Below are positions 12,731 to 28,236 of a DNA stretch of 40,359 nt, one piece after another. Numbering within the stretch: the first letter of the stretch is position 1; each line of letters begins with the position of its first letter. Source of the DNA: Acidiplasma aeolicum (GTDB taxonomy: Archaea; Thermoplasmatota; Thermoplasmata; Thermoplasmatales; Thermoplasmataceae); contig NZ_LKBG01000231.1 of NCBI RefSeq assembly GCF_001402945.1, forward strand, positions 1 through 40,359, written 5' to 3'. The notes under the pieces were generated by a model that did no database searches, was not told the origin of the DNA, and saw nothing but the letters and a program-made list of their open reading frames with translations. Both the position numbers and the translations under genes were made by a program.

Positions 12731-15700
12731 ATGATAACTAGTATAAAAAATGTTATAAAAAGGGACGGAACTGAGGTTCCATTCGATAAGGGTAAAATAG
12801 CAATGGCAATTTATAAGGCCATGCTTTCGGTTAAAATGGGTTCAATGGAGGATGCAAACAAGCTTGCCGATATTGTTACAGAGGAATTGGAAAAATCAGG
12901 GGGGGTACCAAATGTTGAATCCATACAGGATACTGTAGAAAATGTTCTTATGACAAGAAAGATTGATGGTAAATCGTATATACCTGTTGCAAAATCATAT
13001 ATATTATACAGGGAAAAGAGGAAAACCATAAGGGAGGAAAAGGAGCTACTTGGTGTAAAGGACGATCTAAAATTAACTGTAAATGCAATAAAGGTTCTTG
13101 AGGCAAGGTATTTATTCAAGGACTCTGAGGGCAAAATAATAGAAACCCCAAGGCAGATGTTCCACCGTGTTGCAGTACATCTGGCCATAATACAGGGATT
13201 ATATGATTACCGTGATTTCCAGAAAAATGGTGTTATACATGAGGATGGTGAGGTCTATTCAGGTCTTTCAAAAACACAGATAGATGAATTGAGGAGGGCC
13301 TTTAATGAGTTAAAGAAGGAAAAGGAGCTAACAGGCACGTTTGATGAATTCCTTGATTTTCTTGAGACAAAGAAAACAAGAATAAATTATTATATCAAAA
13401 AATTTGAGGACGAAATGATAAACCTGCGCTTTGTTCCAAATTCACCAACATTAATGAATGCCGGTGGACCACTTGGTCAGCTTTCAGCATGCTTTGTGCT
13501 TCCAGTCGATGATAGCATAGATTCCATATTTGATGCATTAAAATATACCGCGGAGATACACAAATCTGGCGGTGGCACAGGTTTCTCATTCTCAAGGCTA
13601 AGGGCATCAGATGACATAGTTGCATCCACAAAGGGTGTTGCATCAGGCCCAGTATCATTTATGAGAATATTTGATGTTACAACAGATGTAATAAAACAGG
13701 GTGGCAAGAGAAGGGGGGCAAACATGGGCATACTTAACTATAACCACCCGAACATAATGGACTTTATAATGAGCAAGGACTCAGATAACAAGGTTCTAAG
13801 CAATTTCAATATATCTGTTGCGGTTGATGATGAATTTTTTGAAAAGCTGGACAATGATGATTATATTGAGCTTAAGAATCCACGTGATAAAAGAACGATG
13901 GGAAAAATTAAGGCAAGGACCCTCTGGAATTCCATAATAAACCAGGCATGGAAGACCGGAGACCCCGGAATGGTTTTCCTTGATGAAATTAATAAAAAGA
14001 ACCCTGTGAAAAATATAGGGTATATAGAATCAACAAATCCCTGTGTAACAGGTGATACAAGAATATACACATCCGAGGGAATAAAAACAGCAAAACAGCT
14101 GTATGATTATGGAGAGCCATTAAATATAAAGATAGATGGAAGATTAGGTGGCAATTTCAGAAAATCATCAAATGTCATTTATACAGGCTATAAGGATGTA
14201 TATAAGATAACAACCAGGGAGGGATTCGAAATAAAGGTAACCGGAGACCATAAAATCTACAGCGATGAAAGAGGATGGGTAGAGGCATTAAAGTTAAGAA
14301 AGGGCGAAAAAATAAGAATACTAAATGAAGGAGGAGCTTTTGGAAGCTATGGCAGCCTTGAGGAAGGAAGGGTCCTTGGATGGCTTGTTGGTGATGGCCA
14401 TATAAACAAAGGCAATAATAACGATCGGGCCGTTCTATCATTCTATGACCAGGATCGCGTATTGGCAAAGGATTTTGAAAATTATGTAAATAATATAATA
14501 AGGCCATCAACGAATAACCGTGATTACCATGTAGGACTGGTAAACATAGAGAGCAGAAACTGCACAACAATAGCATCTGAAAGATTAAAGGAAATGGCTA
14601 AAGAATATGATTTATTGGATGAAAAATTAAAGGTTCCTGAGAAGGTATTTGAAGGATCAATGGAAATGCAGAAAGGATTTATACAGGCACTATTCGAGGC
14701 GGATGGTACAGTAAATCTAGATGGGAACAGCACAAGGCATATACATTTAACATCAATAAGCGAGAAACTATTACGTGGTGTTCAAGAATTGTTACTTAAC
14801 TTTGGAATATACAGTAGAATATATTTCAATCGCAGAAAGGCTGGATTTAAAATGCTTCCAGATTCAAATAGAAATCTAAAAATGTATAAAACTCAACCAT
14901 ATCACGAGTTATATATCATGGGTAAAAGTTCGGTAACATTCTATAATAAAATAGGATTTTTATCCGAAAGAAAGAACTCAAAGTTATTAAAGCTTGTAAA
15001 TAGTTACTCACATGGACCTAGAGATGAGAAATGGGTTGCAAGGGTTGATAATATAGAATATGTAGGTAAGGAAGATGTATATGATTTAGTAGAACCATCT
15101 ACTCATTCATTTGTAGCTAGCGGAATTGTGGTACACAACTGTGGCGAGCAGCCGCTTATGCCCTATGAATCCTGCAATCTCGGTTCAATAAATCTATCAA
15201 AATTTGTGGAGAATGGTCAGTTCAATTTTGATAAATATAAAGAAACAATAGACATAGCCACAAGGTTCCTTGAAAACGTAGTAGATGCCAACAAATTCCC
15301 TGTAGAGGAAATAAAAAACATGACAAGAAAGACCAGAAAAATAGGCCTTGGATTAATGGGATTTGCAGACATGCTAATAATGCTTGGCATACCATATAAC
15401 AGCAATGAGGCCCTTGAAATGGCGGAAAAGGTCATGAAAACACTTAATGATGAGTCACACCTTGAATCACAGAGACTTGCTGAGGAGAGGGGTGTCTTCC
15501 CCGGATGGTATGGATCAGAATGGGAGGAAAACGGAATAAAGATGAGAAATTCAACAACAACAACCATTGCCCCAACAGGTACAATATCAATAATTGCCGG
15601 ATGTTCCTCATCAATTGAGCCATTATTTGCCATAGCCTTTGTAAGACATGTGCTAAACGGGCAGGAATTACTGGAGGTAAATCCCCTATTTGAGGATGCC

Positions 15701-16156
15701 CTAAGGTCAAGGGGGCTTTACTCAAATGAGATAATGGAAAAGGTTGCACAGACAGGGAACCTGCAGAATGTTGATTTACCTGATGACCTGAAATCAATAT
15801 TTGTGACTGCGCAGGAGATAGATCCTGAATGGCATGTAATAATGCAGGCAACATTCCAGAGATACTGCGATTCCGGAGTATCAAAGACAATTAACCTTCC
15901 CTATGAGGCAACTCCAGATGACATTGCAAAGGCATACAGGCTCGCAAAGGATCTGCACTGCAAGGGTATAACGGTTTACAGGGACAGGAGCAAGAGCCAG
16001 CAGGTATTATATGCAGGAACAAAAAAGGAAACTGAGGAGACAAAAAAAAGTGATGAGGAAAAAAAAATTGATTTATCATTAAAAATGCCCGATAAATTCC
16101 TGAAACTTGACTCCACATTCGACCCTGCATGCCCAACAGGAAAATGTGATTTATAA
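12731..16156 (+). CDS. nrdJ: Adenosylcobalamin-dependent (class II) ribonucleotide reductase with intein
   Basis: A 1141-residue precursor: 775 residues of reductase plus a 366-residue intein at 438-803. An ATP-cone domain fills about residues 3-95 (IKRDGTEVPFDKGKIAMAIY). The barrel carries NSPTLMNAGGPLGQLSACFVLP, KSGGGTGFSFSRLR, TNPC/GEQPLMPYESCNLGS split by the intein, and APTGTISIIAGCSSSIEP. The radical Cys and the following Glu of CGEQ are in the C-extein (Cys804 of the precursor, Cys438 after splicing). The C-terminal redox pair is Cys1134/Cys1139 in ACPTGKCDL. It reduces ribonucleotides to deoxyribonucleotides with a B12-derived thiyl radical and does not need oxygen. SD and TATA lie upstream; a 20-bp palindrome overlaps its stop. 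Confidence 0.96.
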   Translation: MITSIKNVIKRDGTEVPFDKGKIAMAIYKAMLSVKMGSMEDANKLADIVTEELEKSGGVPNVESIQDTVENVLMTRKIDGKSYIPVAKSYILYREKRKTIREEKELLGVKDDLKLTVNAIKVLEARYLFKDSEGKIIETPRQMFHRVAVHLAIIQGLYDYRDFQKNGVIHEDGEVYSGLSKTQIDELRRAFNELKKEKELTGTFDEFLDFLETKKTRINYYIKKFEDEMINLRFVPNSPTLMNAGGPLGQLSACFVLPVDDSIDSIFDALKYTAEIHKSGGGTGFSFSRLRASDDIVASTKGVASGPVSFMRIFDVTTDVIKQGGKRRGANMGILNYNHPNIMDFIMSKDSDNKVLSNFNISVAVDDEFFEKLDNDDYIELKNPRDKRTMGKIKARTLWNSIINQAWKTGDPGMVFLDEINKKNPVKNIGYIESTNPCVTGDTRIYTSEGIKTAKQLYDYGEPLNIKIDGRLGGNFRKSSNVIYTGYKDVYKITTREGFEIKVTGDHKIYSDERGWVEALKLRKGEKIRILNEGGAFGSYGSLEEGRVLGWLVGDGHINKGNNNDRAVLSFYDQDRVLAKDFENYVNNIIRPSTNNRDYHVGLVNIESRNCTTIASERLKEMAKEYDLLDEKLKVPEKVFEGSMEMQKGFIQALFEADGTVNLDGNSTRHIHLTSISEKLLRGVQELLLNFGIYSRIYFNRRKAGFKMLPDSNRNLKMYKTQPYHELYIMGKSSVTFYNKIGFLSERKNSKLLKLVNSYSHGPRDEKWVARVDNIEYVGKEDVYDLVEPSTHSFVASGIVVHNCGEQPLMPYESCNLGSINLSKFVENGQFNFDKYKETIDIATRFLENVVDANKFPVEEIKNMTRKTRKIGLGLMGFADMLIMLGIPYNSNEALEMAEKVMKTLNDESHLESQRLAEERGVFPGWYGSEWEENGIKMRNSTTTTIAPTGTISIIAGCSSSIEPLFAIAFVRHVLNGQELLEVNPLFEDALRSRGLYSNEIMEKVAQTGNLQNVDLPDDLKSIFVTAQEIDPEWHVIMQATFQRYCDSGVSKTINLPYEATPDDIAKAYRLAKDLHCKGITVYRDRSKSQQVLYAGTKKETEETKKSDEEKKIDLSLKMPDKFLKLDSTFDPACPTGKCDL
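14042..15139 (+). mobile_element. Intein with LAGLIDADG homing endonuclease in nrdJ
   Basis: 366 codons in frame (precursor residues 438-803). Splice block A begins CVTGDTRIYTSEG with Cys1. Block B is EIKVTGDHKIYS (TxxH). The C-terminal block is HSFVASGIVVHN followed by extein Cys804, giving the standard Cys1 / His-Asn / Cys+1 chemistry. Two LAGLIDADG motifs sit at about residues 546-558 (GRVLGWLVGDGHI) and 650-660 (FIQALFEADGTV), both keeping the acidic residue, so the endonuclease looks intact. It is inserted directly before the catalytic Cys in NPC-GEQPL, a site known for inteins in archaeal reductases. Every extein Gln I read is CAG, while the C-terminal part of the intein uses CAA twice, a weak hint of separate origin. 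Confidence 0.95.
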
Positions 16157-16249: not shown

Positions 16250-17359
16250 TTAGAAATTTTCAAGTATGTTTGTGAAATAAAAAAATGCGTTGTATGGTGA
16301 TTTATAGGGATTAAAATATTCATGGACCTCCTGATCTGGGCCTGTGCCTGCTGCCATATAGTAAAAATTATCTGAGGTCTGAAGATATCCAAAGAGTTTT
16401 TCATCAATTTTATCGCCCTTTGATAACAAAATATTTAGCGCCTCAACCTGCATACTGTTTCCAGTCCATGGTGATAGGTCCCTCCCGGTATCAGCCCATG
16501 ATATTGTGGAATCTGTATTTATAACTGATTTAACAGAAAATTTTAACGCGTCATTTACCCTGAGGTCGTTTATATTATTTTTAATCATTTCAGTTTTCAA
16601 TGATTTTAAAAATTCAAAAATTCCGGTGGAACTGTCCTGATGTTCCCCAAATGTCTCATAATCCATAAAAATATTAATTACATCGCCTTCTGAGTGTTTA
16701 ATCCAGGATGCATATTTTTCGGCTGTAAGTGGAAACTCCGGCCACGATCTGTTTGAGAATCTAAATGATATGTCATCACTTAAATTATAATTCCTTAAAA
16801 GCATTCCTAATCCATTAATATCCTTATAAACAAAGTTGGGTGAATTGGCGTTATTGAATCTGTCTGTAAATTCTGTTAAAATTAAATTGTATCCAATATT
16901 TTTAACAATCCTGCCAATATTTGTATTGTAAATTAATTCTGTATTTCTAAAATTTTTGGGTTTGATTCCAAATACATTTTTCATTTTTTCAGCATGCATG
17001 GAAATTTGTTTTTTAAATTCGTTTTCATCATAGATTCCTGCAAGGCTGTGATAATAGGTTTCATCAAGCAATTCCCCAAGCCCGGATTTAAAGTATTCCT
17101 TAAACGCATCAAGAACCTCTGGGTAAAACATCTCAGCCTGTTCTATAAATGTACCTGATAATGAGAATGTGGCATTTATATTATTCTCCATTAAAATTCT
17201 TGTTGCAGGTATGTATGATTTTTCCGAAATTCTTTTAAAAATCCTCTCATTTTCAGAGTCCCAGAAGAATGAATTATTATTGCCTATTTCGTACCTTCTG
17301 TAAGGTCTCAGCCTACGTGGCTGGTGAACCTCAAAATACATTATTACATTATCCGTCAT
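16250..17359 (-). CDS. GH57 alpha-amylase-like glycoside hydrolase
   Basis: 369 residues. GH57 conserved regions are visible: HQP at 12-14 (region 1), GLGELLDETYYHSL (region 2), FRNTELIYN with probable nucleophile Glu141 (region 3) and FMDYETFGEHQ with probable acid/base Asp233 (region 4). It should cut or rearrange alpha-1,4-glucan. At this length it lacks the extra domains of GH57 branching enzymes, so an alpha-amylase is more likely. No signal peptide, so it acts in the cytosol. Its ATG overlaps the stop of the glycosyltransferase gene by four bases; it is the last gene of the glucan operon. Confidence 0.9.
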   Translation of the reverse strand: MTDNVIMYFEVHQPRRLRPYRRYEIGNNNSFFWDSENERIFKRISEKSYIPATRILMENNINATFSLSGTFIEQAEMFYPEVLDAFKEYFKSGLGELLDETYYHSLAGIYDENEFKKQISMHAEKMKNVFGIKPKNFRNTELIYNTNIGRIVKNIGYNLILTEFTDRFNNANSPNFVYKDINGLGMLLRNYNLSDDISFRFSNRSWPEFPLTAEKYASWIKHSEGDVINIFMDYETFGEHQDSSTGIFEFLKSLKTEMIKNNINDLRVNDALKFSVKSVINTDSTISWADTGRDLSPWTGNSMQVEALNILLSKGDKIDEKLFGYLQTSDNFYYMAAGTGPDQEVHEYFNPYKSPYNAFFYFTNILENF

Positions 17360-18498
17360 ATTGATCTGTATACCTCCATTGTTTTAATGGCAGCACTCTC
17401 CCATGTAAATTTCCTTGCCTCAATCTGGCCATTTATACCCATGGTCTCTCTTAATCCCCTATGAAGAAGCATTGAGATTATATATTCAGATAAAAGTTCA
17501 GTGTCCCAGTAATCAGATCTGAAAACATTATGAAGCGCCTCACCAACACCGGTTGTGTAGCTAATTATTGCGGGGGTTCCGGTGCTCATTGCCTCTATAA
17601 CAGACATGCCAAATGGCTCGGATACCGCGGGGAGCAGAAACACATCACTGTTTTTATAATAGTATATCTGCTCATTAAAGCTTACAAAGCCCCTGAATAT
17701 AACATTCTTATTTATTCCAAGTTCACCTGTAATTCTCCTCATCTCAGGCTCCTGATCACCGGTACCGGCAAATGTAAATTTAATATCTGGAAATTTCTTT
17801 ATAACACGGTATGCCGCATTCAGGAAAAATCTTGGTCCTTTCTGTGTTGTAATTCTCCCAAAATAAAGAACGTTTCTGTATAAATCATAGGATTTCTGCG
17901 GCATGTTTATGAATGTATTATCTATACCATTATGCACAACATAAATTTTTTTTGGATCTGCATTATAATATTTAATAATCATCTTCTGGGTGTATTCTGA
18001 TACGGCTATTATTCTGTCAGCATATTTTATGCCCCTTCTTTCAATGTCCATTATATATTTTTGTGGGAAAAAGTTTCCGGATCTGTCTATTTCTGTGCTG
18101 TGCACTGTTATTACAAGGGGTTTATTATATCTTTCCTTAAGCTCAATGCCCGCCTCAAATGTAATCCAGTCATGGCAGTGTATAATATCGGTTTCAGGAT
18201 CGAATTGATCAACAACCATCTCATTATAATATTTTATCTTTTCATTAAAATCATGAAATTTAATGCCATCGAATCCGGTATAATAACTTTCATTTCTTAT
18301 ATTTTTTTCATTAATTTTATAATTGGTTTTCACCCTTTTTACCCTAAATGGATAATATGGATAAAGTCCTGAAACATCTGGAATATACAGCGTTACATCA
18401 AAAATCTTATTTATAATTGAAAATATATTTATGGTATGAACACCCAGGCCACCTGAAAATGCAGGCGGAAGCTCCCAGCCGATTACAGATATCCTCAT
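17356..18498 (-). CDS. GT4-family glycosyltransferase, glycogen-synthase-like
   Basis: 380 residues with a GT-B fold. The N-terminal half opens MRISVIGWELPPAFSGGLG and contains HCHDWITFEAG and VITVHSTEIDRSG. The C-terminal half has VLYFGRITTQKG, VHNGID and the donor-binding EPFGMSVIEAMSTGTPAI (ExxxxxxxE). It begins immediately after the debranching-enzyme stop, with GGGGGC as possible ribosome site, and overlaps the GH57 start. With a debranching enzyme and an amylase around it, a role in making cytosolic alpha-1,4-glucan from a nucleotide sugar is likely. Trehalose or other glucoside synthesis cannot be excluded. Confidence 0.88.
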   Translation of the reverse strand: MRISVIGWELPPAFSGGLGVHTINIFSIINKIFDVTLYIPDVSGLYPYYPFRVKRVKTNYKINEKNIRNESYYTGFDGIKFHDFNEKIKYYNEMVVDQFDPETDIIHCHDWITFEAGIELKERYNKPLVITVHSTEIDRSGNFFPQKYIMDIERRGIKYADRIIAVSEYTQKMIIKYYNADPKKIYVVHNGIDNTFINMPQKSYDLYRNVLYFGRITTQKGPRFFLNAAYRVIKKFPDIKFTFAGTGDQEPEMRRITGELGINKNVIFRGFVSFNEQIYYYKNSDVFLLPAVSEPFGMSVIEAMSTGTPAIISYTTGVGEALHNVFRSDYWDTELLSEYIISMLLHRGLRETMGINGQIEARKFTWESAAIKTMEVYRSI

Positions 18499-20289
18499 TT
18501 AATTGCCCCCAAGATCCTCAAAGTAAGATCTTATTAATTCCCCGTAACTCCATGCCTGAAGTATGCAGCCCTTTGGCGTCCCATCATCATCAAAGAGTTC
18601 CGGTATTTTCCTCATGTTATATAGTGATGAAAAATAATCAAGCAAATCTGAGGCACTGTTGCCTGACCTTACAGCCGCCGTAATATACGGGCCTGCAAGC
18701 CACGGCCATATGATTCCATTATGATATGCCCTGTCACGGTGAAGCCGGTCACCGGTATATACAGGTATGTAATCAGGATCCTCTGGAGATAATGTTCTGA
18801 GCCCATATGGTGTTATAAGGTATTTATCAACCTGATTTTTGTATTTATTAAAGTTATTTAATACCGGGAATGGAAGTGAAAAGGCAAAAATAAAATTAGG
18901 CCTTAATTTAAAATCATCTGGAAGCACATCGTAAATTTTTCCATCATGCATGTATAGATTTTCAAAATTTTTTTCGATATACTTATATATATTTTTATAG
19001 GAATCATCATAACCAATTGAAACCTCATTGCAGAGGAACTCATATGTTTTAAGCGCATTATACCATAGCGCATTTATCTCCACAGGCATTCCTGAACGTG
19101 GCGTGAATATTATATTATTATACTCCGCATCCATCCACGTCAGCTTGCCCATCTTTAATTTTATAAGGTTATTTTCCATAAAATAATAGTCATTACCCCT
19201 AATATATCCATCTATAATCTCCTTAATTGCCGGCATAAAATGCCTTATGGTGTTAACATCTTTTGTGTACTCATAATACTTATAAACTGCATAGATAAAC
19301 CAGAGCGATACATCTGCAGCATCATATTCCCCTGCCATCGTTTTGGGAATTATTCCGTTTTTCATTTGCCTCATATATGTAAATAGAATATCCCTGGCAA
19401 GTTCATATCTACCGGGTATAAGCGCAAGCCCCGGCAGGGATATAAATGTATCCCTGCCCCATGGGCCAAACCAGTAATATCCCGCTATTATATTATTTTT
19501 AAGGAGGAAAATATTTGCCTTTTCATACATGTTTTTTATATTTATTCTATTTGATCTAATTTTATATCTGCTTTTAATGTATTCTTTAAGGGTATCATCA
19601 AAGGATTCGCCAGCATATGATGCATCAGAATGCACAGTAATTTCAATGTTTTTGCCTGGATATCTTAGCTCAAAGTGCCCCGGAAGATACAGATCCTCCT
19701 CATAATGTGATCCTCTTTCAATTTCAACAGGATACTGAAAATTATAATACCACAAATTATCTGTAATAAAATTGCCATCAGCTCCAATCCAAAGATTATT
19801 TTGAACGGATGAAAAATGAACAAATTTACCATTTTTCTGCCATACAAAAATACGATCACCCTTTCTTATTATATCATTGGAATTTCTAAAACTTAATAAT
19901 GGATAAAATCTTGCAATTTCAGGCTCAGGGTCCATTTCATATTTTATTATTAAAACATCCTTAAGTGGATGCATAATTATGCTTTTTTTTATTTTGAAAT
20001 TCTGTGAAGAATATACAAACTGGGGATATGGATCATCATTAAGGTCACTTAAATATTTTCTGCCGTCGGGAAATACAGTGCCCGGATAGTAATTTGAATC
20101 CAGGTTTATCCTATCTGAATCAAATTCAAATTCCTCAAAGAATTTTGAAAGCATTACCATTCTATCATAATTCTCATTTATATTTTTTACAAAAATGCCG
20201 TGATACGTCCTTAGATTTGCAAAGGATGCTGAGGATGATGAATAGCTTGCATTTTTATTTGCAATGATCCACTCATAATTATAATCCAT
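18499..20289 (-). CDS. Amylo-alpha-1,6-glucosidase (glycogen debranching enzyme, GH133)
   Basis: 596 residues. The N-terminal beta-rich domain (about 1-230) precedes an (alpha/alpha)6 barrel. Barrel motifs typical of the GDE C-terminal family are WFGPWGRDTFISLPGLAL, GEYDAADVSLWFIYAV, LTWMDAEYN, TPRSGMPVEINALWYNAL, HRDRAYHNGIIWPWLAGPY and LQAWSYGELIRSYF. It removes alpha-1,6 branch glucose from glycogen-type polymers. It is first in the operon debranching / GT4 / GH57, and its presence implies a branched glucan. TATATAAT about 30 nt upstream of the ATG is the probable promoter. Confidence 0.93.
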   Translation of the reverse strand: MDYNYEWIIANKNASYSSSSASFANLRTYHGIFVKNINENYDRMVMLSKFFEEFEFDSDRINLDSNYYPGTVFPDGRKYLSDLNDDPYPQFVYSSQNFKIKKSIIMHPLKDVLIIKYEMDPEPEIARFYPLLSFRNSNDIIRKGDRIFVWQKNGKFVHFSSVQNNLWIGADGNFITDNLWYYNFQYPVEIERGSHYEEDLYLPGHFELRYPGKNIEITVHSDASYAGESFDDTLKEYIKSRYKIRSNRINIKNMYEKANIFLLKNNIIAGYYWFGPWGRDTFISLPGLALIPGRYELARDILFTYMRQMKNGIIPKTMAGEYDAADVSLWFIYAVYKYYEYTKDVNTIRHFMPAIKEIIDGYIRGNDYYFMENNLIKLKMGKLTWMDAEYNNIIFTPRSGMPVEINALWYNALKTYEFLCNEVSIGYDDSYKNIYKYIEKNFENLYMHDGKIYDVLPDDFKLRPNFIFAFSLPFPVLNNFNKYKNQVDKYLITPYGLRTLSPEDPDYIPVYTGDRLHRDRAYHNGIIWPWLAGPYITAAVRSGNSASDLLDYFSSLYNMRKIPELFDDDGTPKGCILQAWSYGELIRSYFEDLGGN

Positions 20290-24102: not shown

Positions 24103-24927
24103 ATGCCACAGGATACAAATTTGAAACAGTACTATACATCATTTAAATATCAGTTACTGGGTTATATTAAGACCAAAAGGTTTATCGGGCTTACCCTTTT
24201 TTCATTAATAGTTTCGATTGCGGTTACACTTTTAATGTTTCATGTGGAATACACAACGTTAAAGGATTCAAACTCGCCAACATTTTTTTTAAATTATCTT
24301 GATACATCACTTCTGGATATTATTGTTGTGGTCGGTTCATTTTTTGGTGGTGATTTAATTTCAGGCGATGTTGGCACCGGTTCAGCATATTACATACTTG
24401 TTCAGCCGGTAAAAAGGTCAGTTTTATTTCTTGGGAAGTATACCGCTGCACTGCTATCATCCTTTTTCATAGTTTTCCTTTACATACTTGTCGGAATTTT
24501 TGCATCTATTGACCTTTATGGAACGGTAACATCCAAGGTTGCACTGAGCCTTGGCCTTGTACTTTTAATGGTTGCCGCAACCATCATGCTGGCATCATTT
24601 TTTAGCTCCATATTTAAGAGCCCAACATCCGGCATGATCACATCAATTGTTCTATTAATTCTAGTATTTCCAATAATAACCGGAATTATAGGCAGCCTTG
24701 AGGGCATATATCCAATTGAATTTTTAACCTTTGCAGGTGAGATTACATACCTTATTTTCAATACCGAATATCCCGCAACAAAAATAGTGAGTCCGGCATT
24801 GCATGGCCTTAAAATATACACGTTTAATCCGGCATTATATCAGGGGATAGAATCACTTCTGATTTATTTAATCGTCTTTGGCATTATATCAATTGTGATT
24901 TATTCAAGGAGGCAGATCGAGGGATAA
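24103..24927 (+). CDS. ABC-2 type transporter permease
   Basis: 274 residues, six predicted spans: one near residues 24-46 (FIGLTLFSLIVSIAVTLLMF), then a group from about 70 to 200 and the last near 250-268. The pattern GDLISGDVGTGSAYYILVQPVKRSVLFLGKY between spans 2 and 3 is typical of ABC-2 permeases. It should form the membrane part of an exporter with the ATPase encoded two bases downstream. The cargo (drug, lipid, peptide or polysaccharide) cannot be told from sequence. Confidence 0.87.
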   Translation: MPQDTNLKQYYTSFKYQLLGYIKTKRFIGLTLFSLIVSIAVTLLMFHVEYTTLKDSNSPTFFLNYLDTSLLDIIVVVGSFFGGDLISGDVGTGSAYYILVQPVKRSVLFLGKYTAALLSSFFIVFLYILVGIFASIDLYGTVTSKVALSLGLVLLMVAATIMLASFFSSIFKSPTSGMITSIVLLILVFPIITGIIGSLEGIYPIEFLTFAGEITYLIFNTEYPATKIVSPALHGLKIYTFNPALYQGIESLLIYLIVFGIISIVIYSRRQIEG

Positions 24928-24929
24928 AA

Positions 24930-25841
24930 ATGGAAATATCAATGGTCAATGTTTCAAAAAAATATAGGAATTTTACCGCACTGGACAATGTATCATTTAA
25001 TTTTTCCGGTAAAAGGGCCATAGGATATCTTGGTCCAAACGGTGCGGGAAAAACAACAACATTAAAAATTATGACAAATTTATTAAGGCCATCACAGGGC
25101 ACAGTAGAATTAAATGGCATAAATGTTAATAAAAATCCAAAAAAGGCCCTGGAATCGGTTGGCTCCATGATAGAAACACCTGTGCCATACCCATATTTTA
25201 CCGTAAAGGAATCACTGGAATTTATCGGTGAGCTGAGGGGCATTGACAAAAGAACTGTTGATGGCAAAATAGACGAATATTTTGACGCACTTAAACTACC
25301 ACCATTAAAAAATAGAATAGGTTCATTATCAAAAGGCCAGAGGCAGAGGGTTGTTTTTGCATCTGTTCTTGTATCTGATCCGGATATAGTGATACTTGAT
25401 GAGCCAACAAGCGGCCTTGATCCATTTGAGAGGAAGATATTCCGTGATTTTATATTGAAACTAAAAAAGGACAAGCTTGTTTTCTTCTCATCCCATATAC
25501 TCTCAGAGGTCTCAGAAACATGTGATGATGTAATATTTTTAAATCATGGGAAGGTTCTTAAGATAGGAAATATGGGCGAGATAACAAGGAGCTTTAACAC
25601 AAACGCGGTAAAAATTGAGTTTGTTAAAAATGTGGATAATGATATACTATCAAGGTTAAGGGAATTAAAATATGACATTATGGATTCATCAGGAAGAACT
25701 GTAACAATCAATTATTCAGGAGATGAGCAGGAGAGGGCACAGATTCTGATTAACGCCATTAAAATCTGCCCTGTAATATCATACACATCTGCAGGATCAG
25801 ACCTTGAAAAGGCATATATATCAATTCTTGGGGAGAAATGA
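24930..25841 (+). CDS. ABC transporter ATP-binding protein
   Basis: 303 residues. Walker A is GPNGAGKTT at 35-43, the signature is SLSKGQRQRV at about 132-141, Walker B is IVILDEPTSGLD at 153-164, and the H-loop is FFSSHILSE with His189. The C-terminal 90 residues form the extra domain common in ABC-2 exporter ATPases and end SDLEKAYISILGEK, matching the usual SLEDVFLxLTG tail, so the protein is complete. Partner of the permease two bases upstream; GAGGGAT before the ATG is a possible ribosome site. The stop codon abuts the GC-rich patch at 25842. Confidence 0.93.
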   Translation: MEISMVNVSKKYRNFTALDNVSFNFSGKRAIGYLGPNGAGKTTTLKIMTNLLRPSQGTVELNGINVNKNPKKALESVGSMIETPVPYPYFTVKESLEFIGELRGIDKRTVDGKIDEYFDALKLPPLKNRIGSLSKGQRQRVVFASVLVSDPDIVILDEPTSGLDPFERKIFRDFILKLKKDKLVFFSSHILSEVSETCDDVIFLNHGKVLKIGNMGEITRSFNTNAVKIEFVKNVDNDILSRLRELKYDIMDSSGRTVTINYSGDEQERAQILINAIKICPVISYTSAGSDLEKAYISILGEK

Positions 25842-25905
25842 GGTGGCACCCTGGCGTTATCTGGGGCTTCTCTATTCCAGGGAAAAGCCCTAGCTCCAAG
25901 GGCAT
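25842..25905 (+). ncRNA. GC-rich structured patch, possible IS200/IS605 right end (omega-RNA-like)
   Basis: This stretch is much richer in G+C than its surroundings. GGTG/CACC is one small hairpin. CCCTGG (25849-25854) pairs with CCAGGG (25877-25882), while GGGCTT (25864-25869) pairs with AAGCCC (25885-25890); these interleave, as in a pseudoknot. GCCC (25887-25890) can instead pair with GGGC (25900-25903) around TAGCTCCAA. From memory, GGGGCTTCTC...AAGCCCTAGCTCCAAGGG resembles the sequence downstream of archaeal tnpB, where the right end and guide-RNA scaffold lie. No tnpA or tnpB is present, so at most it is a solo remnant. A free-standing small RNA is the alternative. Confidence 0.35.
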
Positions 25906-26154
25906 AAATTCGGTAAAGTTTTGTGTTATATAAATTTCTGGGCAAATGCATAATATAACCTATTTTATTTATCTGCGTTTTATTTTGATATATTCCAAAT
26001 TTATATGCTCTGTCTCTCTTTAATAACTTTTTTAGAATATATATTATAAATATAGAATAATATATACTATAAAACTTTGCATCCCCATATCCCAATGGAA
26101 GGAGACTTAACACTTTAAAGTTAAAATTTAAATTATAATAAATAATCAGATTTT
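25906..26154. other. AT-rich gap without a convincing gene
   Basis: Between the structured patch and the GH1 gene. Most is low-complexity A/T with runs such as ATATATTATAAATATAG. A second less AT-rich island at about 26079-26106 (ATCCCCATATCCCAATGG) has a weak CCAT/ATGG dyad and could be the other border of a mobile remnant. An open frame on the minus strand crosses the area but looks non-coding. The end of the gap carries the GH1 promoter. Confidence 0.6.
26127..26134 (+). promoter_or_regulatory. TATA box of the GH1-fold gene
   Basis: TTTAAATT lies 21-28 nt before the ATG at 26155 with no SD between, as in the other leaderless starts of the window. Confidence 0.5.
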
Positions 26155-27594
26155 ATGTTAAGAAAATTTGTTAATGATTTTATGCTGGGTTTTTCCATAA
26201 ATTCATTTCAGAACGATCAGGGTAATGATTCCATGGCTGTTAACACGGACTGGTATAAATGGTCCACTGATAAAACCATGGAAAATATGAATTATGTTTC
26301 AGGTGGAATAGGTAATGGCCCGGATTTCTGGAATAATTTTAGGAAATATATAGATAAAATTGTAAATGCTGGATTAAACTCTGTAAAAATCGGGATTGAA
26401 TGGTCAAGAATATTTCCAGAAAGCACAGAAAATGTTGAGATTAATTATAAATCAAACTCCTCAGGCGATGTGTATTCAGCAGAATTTGATGATAATTTAT
26501 ATAAAATGCTGGATATCAGGGCAGATAGAAAAAGCCTTGAACATTATGAGTCAATTTTTAAATATATAAGGTCAAAAAATATCAGAATAATTGTTACATT
26601 ATGGGATGGAACATTACCATTGTGGATTCATGACCCTGTTGAATGCAACAGGAATTTACATAATTCAAAGAATAAGGGATGGCTTAATAAGAATACAGTT
26701 CTAGAATTTGGAAAATACTCATATTACATTTCAAAAAGGTTTGGCAGTTATATTGATTATTTTAACACGATGAACCGGCCAAATTATTTTGCAATAAACA
26801 GCTATTTATATGGCAATATTGAGGGATATCCACCGGGGCTTTCAGATTTTTCACTTTTAATGGAGGCATACCGTAATATGGCCTATGCACATAATCTGGC
26901 ATACCTTGCCATAAAAAAATCAATTAATAAGCCCGCTGGATTAACCATGGAGGTTCCATATTTTACACAGGAAATGGATAATGATAATAATATATTCATG
27001 GTAAATTTTGTCAAATATCTTTATTATAATTTATTTATAAATTCAGCACTTTATGGAAATTTTGACATGAACCTTACAGGTGAGTTTAAGGAATCAAGGC
27101 CATATGAATTCAACGGTACGGATTTTATAGGCATATCATATTATGGAAGCATTCCAGTAAGGTATGTGCAGAATGAGGGTGTTGATATAAGATACCGGTT
27201 TGCCTTTATACCATGCACTAACTGCAGCGATGATTTCCATGAAATCCATCCTGACGGAATTAAATATGTGGCATCCGAAATATATAATACATACAGAAAA
27301 CCCGTAATAATAACGGAAAACGGTATTGCAACAGAATCAGATGATAAAAGATGCGATTTCATTAAACATACATTAATAGCCCTGCATCAGGCAGTTAAAG
27401 ATTATCATATAAATTTAAAAGGATATTTTTACAGATCGCTTACAGATACCTATGAATGGGCACATGGTTTTTCATATAAATATGGGATTTTAAATGATAA
27501 CATAAACTTTAAGGATACAGGGTCCATGGATTTATACTCAAATGTGGCAAAAAATAATGGGATAGAGGATGAAAAATACCGTGCATATGAATAA
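26155..27594 (+). CDS. GH1 beta-glycosidase-fold protein lacking the catalytic acid/base
   Basis: 479 residues, close to archaeal LacS length. GH1 landmarks are present: FMLGFSINSFQNDQG (substrate Gln), KIGIEWSRIFP, LPLWIHDP, FIGISYYG, nucleophile Glu388 in IITENG, and DTYEWAHGFSYKYGI. However, the acid/base motif T-M/L-N-E-P reads TMNRPN, with Arg208 (codon CGG) replacing Glu. The usual substrate His of LxHWxLP is Asp151 (LWDGTLP), and the HWSL before the C-terminal EW motif reads YRSL. Hydrolysis by the normal retaining mechanism is therefore unlikely. It may be a binding protein, or use an external base as plant myrosinases do. The frame is intact and has its own promoter. Confidence 0.88.
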   Translation: MLRKFVNDFMLGFSINSFQNDQGNDSMAVNTDWYKWSTDKTMENMNYVSGGIGNGPDFWNNFRKYIDKIVNAGLNSVKIGIEWSRIFPESTENVEINYKSNSSGDVYSAEFDDNLYKMLDIRADRKSLEHYESIFKYIRSKNIRIIVTLWDGTLPLWIHDPVECNRNLHNSKNKGWLNKNTVLEFGKYSYYISKRFGSYIDYFNTMNRPNYFAINSYLYGNIEGYPPGLSDFSLLMEAYRNMAYAHNLAYLAIKKSINKPAGLTMEVPYFTQEMDNDNNIFMVNFVKYLYYNLFINSALYGNFDMNLTGEFKESRPYEFNGTDFIGISYYGSIPVRYVQNEGVDIRYRFAFIPCTNCSDDFHEIHPDGIKYVASEIYNTYRKPVIITENGIATESDDKRCDFIKHTLIALHQAVKDYHINLKGYFYRSLTDTYEWAHGFSYKYGILNDNINFKDTGSMDLYSNVAKNNGIEDEKYRAYE

Positions 27595-27624: not shown

Positions 27625-28236
27625 ATGAACATCATAGAATACATTAAAACAGATGAAATAAAGGGCATAATAAAAAATATAATGAATGCAAAATTTGTGC
27701 TGGAGATGCAGGATGGGTCATTAAGTGATGATAAATTCAAATATTACCTTATTCAGGATGACATATATTTAAAATATTATAAGGAGGCCGGAACAAAAAT
27801 AAAAAATAATACAAAGAACAATGGCATTATAGAACTCTATGATGCAATAGGTTCCGATGAACCGGTGTTTCATCTTCAAATGCTGGATAAATTTGGAATA
27901 AAAAAGGAAAATATAACTGAGGATTTAATTAATTATACAACATATTCTTATATAAATCATTTAATAAGATGGTCAGAGGATTCAGATTATAACGGCATGC
28001 TGTCAATGCTTCCATGCCAGTGGTCCTATGAGTACATAGCGGAAAATTCAAATGTTAAATCTGATAAATACTCATTCTGGTTTGACTTTTATAAATCTGA
28101 TGGTTATATAAAAATCACGGCAAAATACTTTGATATACTAAAAGATCTGGAATTAACCGGGATGCAGAAAAACATCTTTAAATTTGGATTATTATATGAA
28201 TTAAATTACTGGATATGCAGTTATAATGGAATATAA
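27625..28236 (+). CDS. tenA: TenA/THI-4/PQQC-family protein
   Basis: 203 residues, all-helical haem-oxygenase-like fold. TenA marks are KFVLEMQDGSLSDDKFKYYLIQDDIYLKYY near residues 23-52, active-site Cys131 in MLPCQWSYEYIAE, and LLYELNYW near the C-terminus with the conserved Glu. TenA hydrolyses aminopyrimidines in thiamine salvage or splits thiamine (thiaminase II). No other thiamine gene is adjacent. It starts 30 bp after the GH1-like stop with its own AT-rich TATA region, and its last 11 bases overlap the FolC-like gene. Confidence 0.85.
   Translation: MNIIEYIKTDEIKGIIKNIMNAKFVLEMQDGSLSDDKFKYYLIQDDIYLKYYKEAGTKIKNNTKNNGIIELYDAIGSDEPVFHLQMLDKFGIKKENITEDLINYTTYSYINHLIRWSEDSDYNGMLSMLPCQWSYEYIAENSNVKSDKYSFWFDFYKSDGYIKITAKYFDILKDLELTGMQKNIFKFGLLYELNYWICSYNGI

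Follow-up and report, generated by a model that had tools for sequence, protein, structure and literature searches.

GH1 is a textbook enzyme family whose best-known inactive members are animal co-receptors. In the beta-glycosidase of Sulfolobus solfataricus (LacS), E206 is the acid/base and E387 the nucleophile, Gln18, His150, Asn205, Trp425 and Trp433 contact the glycone, and the H150A replacement alone raises KM 3.2- to 27-fold (PMC6522968). Two described groups depart from this arrangement. Klotho proteins share the GH1 fold, but each domain has a replacement at one of its two catalytic Glu residues, and they are considered inactive (PMC10229096); plant myrosinases have Gln at the acid/base position and keep the nucleophile (PMC6691170). 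Our searches of open-licence papers on GH1 pseudoenzymes and on Ferroplasma glycosidases, and of family libraries, revealed no description of an archaeal GH1 pseudoenzyme. Here we describe a GH1-fold protein with an altered active site from the acidophilic archaeon Acidiplasma aeolicum.

The window that we analysed comprises 40,359 nucleotides, positions 1 to 40,359 of the forward strand of contig NZ_LKBG01000231.1. The GH1 open reading frame lies on the plus strand at 26155..27594, starts with ATG and encodes 479 aa; no stop or frameshift occurs across its 479 codons, in agreement with the undisrupted frame of the preliminary description. It is the sole GH1 in its genome. Pfam Glyco_hydro_1 (PF00232) matches it with E=2e-37 and 129.2 bits, against a gathering cut-off of 22.6, placing it within GH1. 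Its nearest solved relatives are LacS-type archaeal beta-glycosidases, and it aligns with LacS (Ss-beta-gly; PDB 1UWQ, 1GOW) over the full length at ~30% identity. Its score of 308 bits against the corresponding NCBIfam model, BgaS (NF041004), is below the cut-off of 475 bits, as is that of the active Ferroplasma ortholog (387 bits). We modelled the structure with AlphaFold2 from a 22-sequence alignment; the model has a pLDDT of 90.4 and a pTM of 0.93, and superposes on LacS with a TM score of 0.88 and on GH1 structures with TM scores of 0.88-0.90, as a (beta/alpha)8 barrel of the GH1 type. Model confidence is lowest at residues 431-460 (pLDDT 60-68), a stretch that includes Glu434 and Trp435. 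The resemblance to GH1 is not due to chance, and the model predicts a GH1 barrel with confidence.

We read the active-site residues from the codons and from the alignment (all coordinates on the plus strand). Arg208 (CGG, 26776..26778), in the motif TMN-R-PN, replaces the acid/base Glu (LacS E206), which is Glu in 18/18 active relatives. Asp151-Gly152 (GAT GGA, 26605..26610) replaces the His-Trp pair that includes the glycone contact His150 (LacS H150, W151; PMC6522968), Tyr426-Arg427 (TAC AGA, 27430..27435) replaces a second His-Trp, the Trp being LacS W425, such that HWSL reads YRSL, and Lys78 (26386..26388) replaces a conserved Arg (LacS R79). The nucleophile position is kept as Glu388 (GAA, 27316..27318; LacS E387) within an intact ITENG, as are Glu434-Trp435 (27454..27459; LacS E432, W433), Gln19 (LacS Q18) and Asn207 (LacS N205). 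Hence, of the five glycone contacts of LacS, the equivalents of His150 and Trp425 are replaced, and those of Gln18, Asn205 and Trp433 are kept. Arg208, Asp151, YRSL and the intact ITENG with Glu388 had been listed in the preliminary description, and all are present in the DNA; its point that a change from Glu to CGG takes at least two base changes also holds (two from GAG, three from GAA). Beyond that list, Trp152 is replaced by Gly, Arg78 by Lys and Asp328 by Ser, and QxE reads QND.

The Glu of NEP was present in all other GH1s read from the order. The genome collections gave 82 GH1 rows in the alignment, the window sequence included; of these, 72 have Glu at both catalytic positions, one has Arg/Glu (the window) and one has Asn/Glu (from genus g13, described below); the remainder are truncated or unaligned there. 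We defined an invariant set of 88 residues common to the 18 active relatives. Pocket positions were lost from the window GH1 at 7/13 sites, compared with 19/75 at the other invariant sites, a borderline enrichment (p=0.05). Given that the equivalents of E206, H150, W151 and W425 are all replaced, and that of R79 is Lys, ordinary acid-assisted hydrolysis is unlikely, and judged from these residues the protein is unlikely to have glycosidase activity.

In a search of 117 genomes of the order, the closest relatives of the window GH1, at 47-52% identity, all belong to Ferroplasma (genus g4, which includes Ferroplasma acidarmanus), a genus close to that of the window and in the same family. Unlike the window sequence, the GH1s of F. 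acidarmanus and its relatives have intact NEP, ENG, HW and HWSL motifs. Their gene order, ABC permease, ABC ATPase, GH1, TenA, FolC, Cdc6, matches that of the window, and we therefore consider the window GH1 to be the syntenic ortholog of the Ferroplasma enzyme; every indel between them is in frame. The genes for an ABC-2 type permease and an ABC ATPase upstream of GH1 (24103..25841, plus strand) are syntenic in both Ferroplasma and same-genus genomes. The TenA gene (thiaminase II family; 27625..28236, plus strand), a syntenic partner of GH1 in Ferroplasma and in g13, begins 30 bp downstream of GH1; its product has the catalytic Cys and Glu motifs and looks catalytically intact. GH1 is preceded by an AT-rich intergenic stretch of 313 bp (25842..26154, plus strand), compared with 5-29 bp at the Ferroplasma loci, so the window GH1 may have its own promoter. 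We rejected the idea that this stretch is itself a GH1 remnant, since it contains no GH1 match; a comparison with the rest of the genome for repeats gave a single weak match over part of its length (~83 bp, 75% identity, contig G000:C178).

The same locus has had other outcomes in close relatives. In G041 and G042, two genomes of the window genus, the ABC genes, TenA, FolC and Cdc6 are all in place, with ~250-300 bp left between the ATPase and TenA. Eroded GH1 remnants lie in this interval (L099:8324-8578 and L098:8032-8329): an N-terminal remnant in G041, KFPEDFMFRVSKNAFQV*, and, read by eye, a short C-terminal-like remnant in both. Within Ferroplasma, a single stop, at the Trp position of YHW, interrupts the otherwise active GH1 of G065 (L005 / L054:8424-9896), and in G061 no GH1 was found at the locus. 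These erosions, the absence and the stop indicate that GH1 is dispensable in the group, and the persistence of TenA without GH1 in G041 and G042 indicates that TenA is independent of it. Across this small clade a single gene is thus found active, altered under constraint, interrupted by a stop, eroded or lost altogether, and the locus constitutes a compact natural experiment in the passage of an enzyme to pseudoenzyme or to disappearance.

A second altered copy occurs in genus g13, in which GH1 adjoins TenA at the corresponding place in both genomes (G094 and G095), an adjacency that survives despite rearranged surroundings. In window numbering, the g13 pocket carries Asn or Asp at His151, Gly at Trp152, Asn at the acid/base position, Ser at Trp427 and Lys at Arg78. 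R78K, W152G and H426Y are identical in the two lineages, and H151, E208 and W427 are lost in both. The two differ in that g13 lacks NG after the nucleophile Glu, has a far longer stem branch, and reads N-N-G where the window has N-R-P; orthologs with the exact N-R-P motif, which the preliminary description had proposed to seek, were not found, g13 being the nearest analogue. The window GH1 keeps 62 of the 88 invariant residues and the g13 copies 45-47, compared with 95-100% in active sequences (leave-one-out). The window has lost 26 invariant sites and g13 41; 21 of these losses coincide in the window and both g13 copies (p=4e-5), and at 7 the replacement is identical. Nine residues are common to the window and both g13 copies and occur in no active relative. 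When the altered sequences were used as queries across the phylum, the sequences read included no further altered copy.

We estimated selection with a purpose-written codon model. On the g13 tip branches omega is 0.073 (0.061 for TenA), with 2dlnL 250 against neutrality, and for the g13 pair alone it is 0.056, indicating that the altered g13 protein is strongly constrained. A branch-class estimate for TenA on the g13 stem was unstable, with a branch length near zero, and was discarded. The window species is represented by one genome in the comparison; on its branch omega=1 is rejected (2dlnL 41.8), and since synonymous sites are saturated, this constraint is an average over a long time. A terminal neutral segment on the window branch never improves the fit; its likelihood maximum is at zero, and the upper bound on its length is ~0.08 substitutions per codon (a likelihood drop of ~1.9 units, interpolated). 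Neutral simulations that lost 26 invariant residues acquired a mean of 13 stops, and 0/400 were stop-free; with 8 invariant residues lost, 20/400 were stop-free. From the simulations and the bound we conclude that most of the active-site loss occurred while the frame was maintained. A short, very recent phase of decay is possible.

The sequence, its orthology, its predicted fold and constraint over most of the window branch are demonstrated by these data. The reading that we favour, with a probability of roughly 0.6, is that the window GH1 is a constrained pseudo-glycosidase that would bind a ligand or a partner in its old pocket. The ancestor would have been an active GH1 beta-glycosidase between the ABC transporter and TenA, as in Ferroplasma. 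The window lineage would have replaced the glycone His/Trp pair, the second Trp, the conserved pocket Arg and the Glu that serves as acid/base, with purifying selection maintaining the barrel together with the nucleophile Glu and four residues that contact the sugar. Glycoside hydrolysis would thereby have been given up in favour of binding in a rebuilt pocket, probably lined now by Arg208, Arg427, Lys78, Asp151, Glu388 and Glu434. Purifying selection on the altered protein, the mark of a pseudoenzyme, is evident in g13 (omega 0.056-0.073) and in the rejection of omega=1 for the window, where dS is saturated. The suggestion in the preliminary description of a retained but altered function agrees with the intact frame and with both of these estimates; of the specific functions that it named, sugar binding or sensing is backed in part, as a candidate function that fits the kept Gln19, Asn207, Glu388, Glu434 and Trp435.

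A constrained pseudo-glycosidase of this kind would resemble Klotho in the way it works; Klotho proteins are extracellular, tandem-domain animal co-receptors. Myrosinases are less close. They are active S-glycosidases and retain the glycone site, whereas the window GH1 has Arg, not Gln, at the acid/base position and has lost the glycone His and Trp. The 30-bp spacing of GH1 and TenA, with an adjacency kept in g13 through rearrangement, suggests co-transcription; from that adjacency one might guess at a role with TenA in cofactor or thiamin salvage.

The remnants in G041 and G042, the empty locus of G061 and the stop in G065 would also suit a window GH1 in early decay, in which catalysis had become dispensable, the active site had been lost and a stop is yet to come, as would the loss of 26/88 invariant residues that active relatives retain at 95-100%. 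However, the bound on the neutral phase leaves room for only a handful of invariant losses, all indels relative to Ferroplasma are in frame, and the parallel g13 gene is under strong selection; we consider early decay rather unlikely. The preliminary description had taken normal NEP and HW motifs in orthologs, combined with relaxed selection here, as the sign of a decaying gene: the Ferroplasma orthologs do have normal motifs, and a neutral window branch as a whole is rejected, though a very recent relaxation is possible. The retention of E388, N207, Q19, E434 and W435 could instead reflect altered chemistry, in which a glycosyl-enzyme still forms at Glu388 and the part of Glu208 is taken over by an activated donor or an external acid/base; plant myrosinases, with Gln for Glu, do work with a Gln plus Glu site (PMC6691170). 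This is improbable, as the equivalents of His150, Trp151, Trp425 and Arg79 are replaced too, H150A in LacS is by itself enough to raise KM 3.2- to 27-fold (PMC6522968), and a positive Arg beside the nucleophile would be expected to favour a salt bridge over catalysis. The earlier proposal of a transferase with a different catalytic base is not supported, since the His and Trp that would touch the sugar have been lost as well, and Arg would be a poor general acid. Although the assembly is a draft in 296 contigs, a sequencing or assembly error is scarcely credible: 7/13 pocket codons differ, some by at least 2 bases, the frame is intact, and the same sites are changed in a second genus.

Whether counted as a constrained pseudo-glycosidase or not, the window GH1 shares its lost pocket residues with g13 either by convergence, with long-branch attraction, or through an old paralog and differential loss. 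The full GH1 tree joins the window and g13 with support of 100/99, contrary to the species markers Cdc6 and ribonucleotide reductase, by which g13 falls outside a group of the window and Ferroplasma. This join, the nine residues exclusive to the window and both g13 copies, and Ser14 and Asn16, common to the G041 remnant and the window (read by eye), would be explained by a single altered paralog that arose by tandem duplication before the split of g13, Ferroplasma and the window genus, was kept in the window and g13 and was lost in Ferroplasma, as opposed to two independent losses. With the active-site columns removed, however, support for the join drops to 82/90 and a grouping of the window with Ferroplasma is not rejected (p=0.166), the very long g13 stem makes long-branch attraction likely, and both copies occur together at the locus in no genome. 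We regard the single paralog as possible though on the unlikely side, and since the join weakens without the active-site columns, we do not claim firm shared ancestry. Broader still, and doubtful, is the idea of an archaeal GH1 pseudoenzyme lineage at one TenA-adjacent locus in two genera, arisen by convergence or old duplication, which would keep half of the sugar site and act as a non-hydrolytic sensor or partner, possibly in thiamin-related salvage.

Elsewhere in the window, the ribonucleotide reductase gene (12731-16156) contains an in-frame intein with splicing and LAGLIDADG domains at approximately residues 439-803. Its distribution is patchy: it is present in G041, G059, G060, G063, G065 and G068, and absent from G042, G062, G066 and G094. 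A glycogen-type cluster on the minus strand (16250-20289) encodes a GH57 protein, a glycosyltransferase and an archaeal glycogen debranching enzyme.
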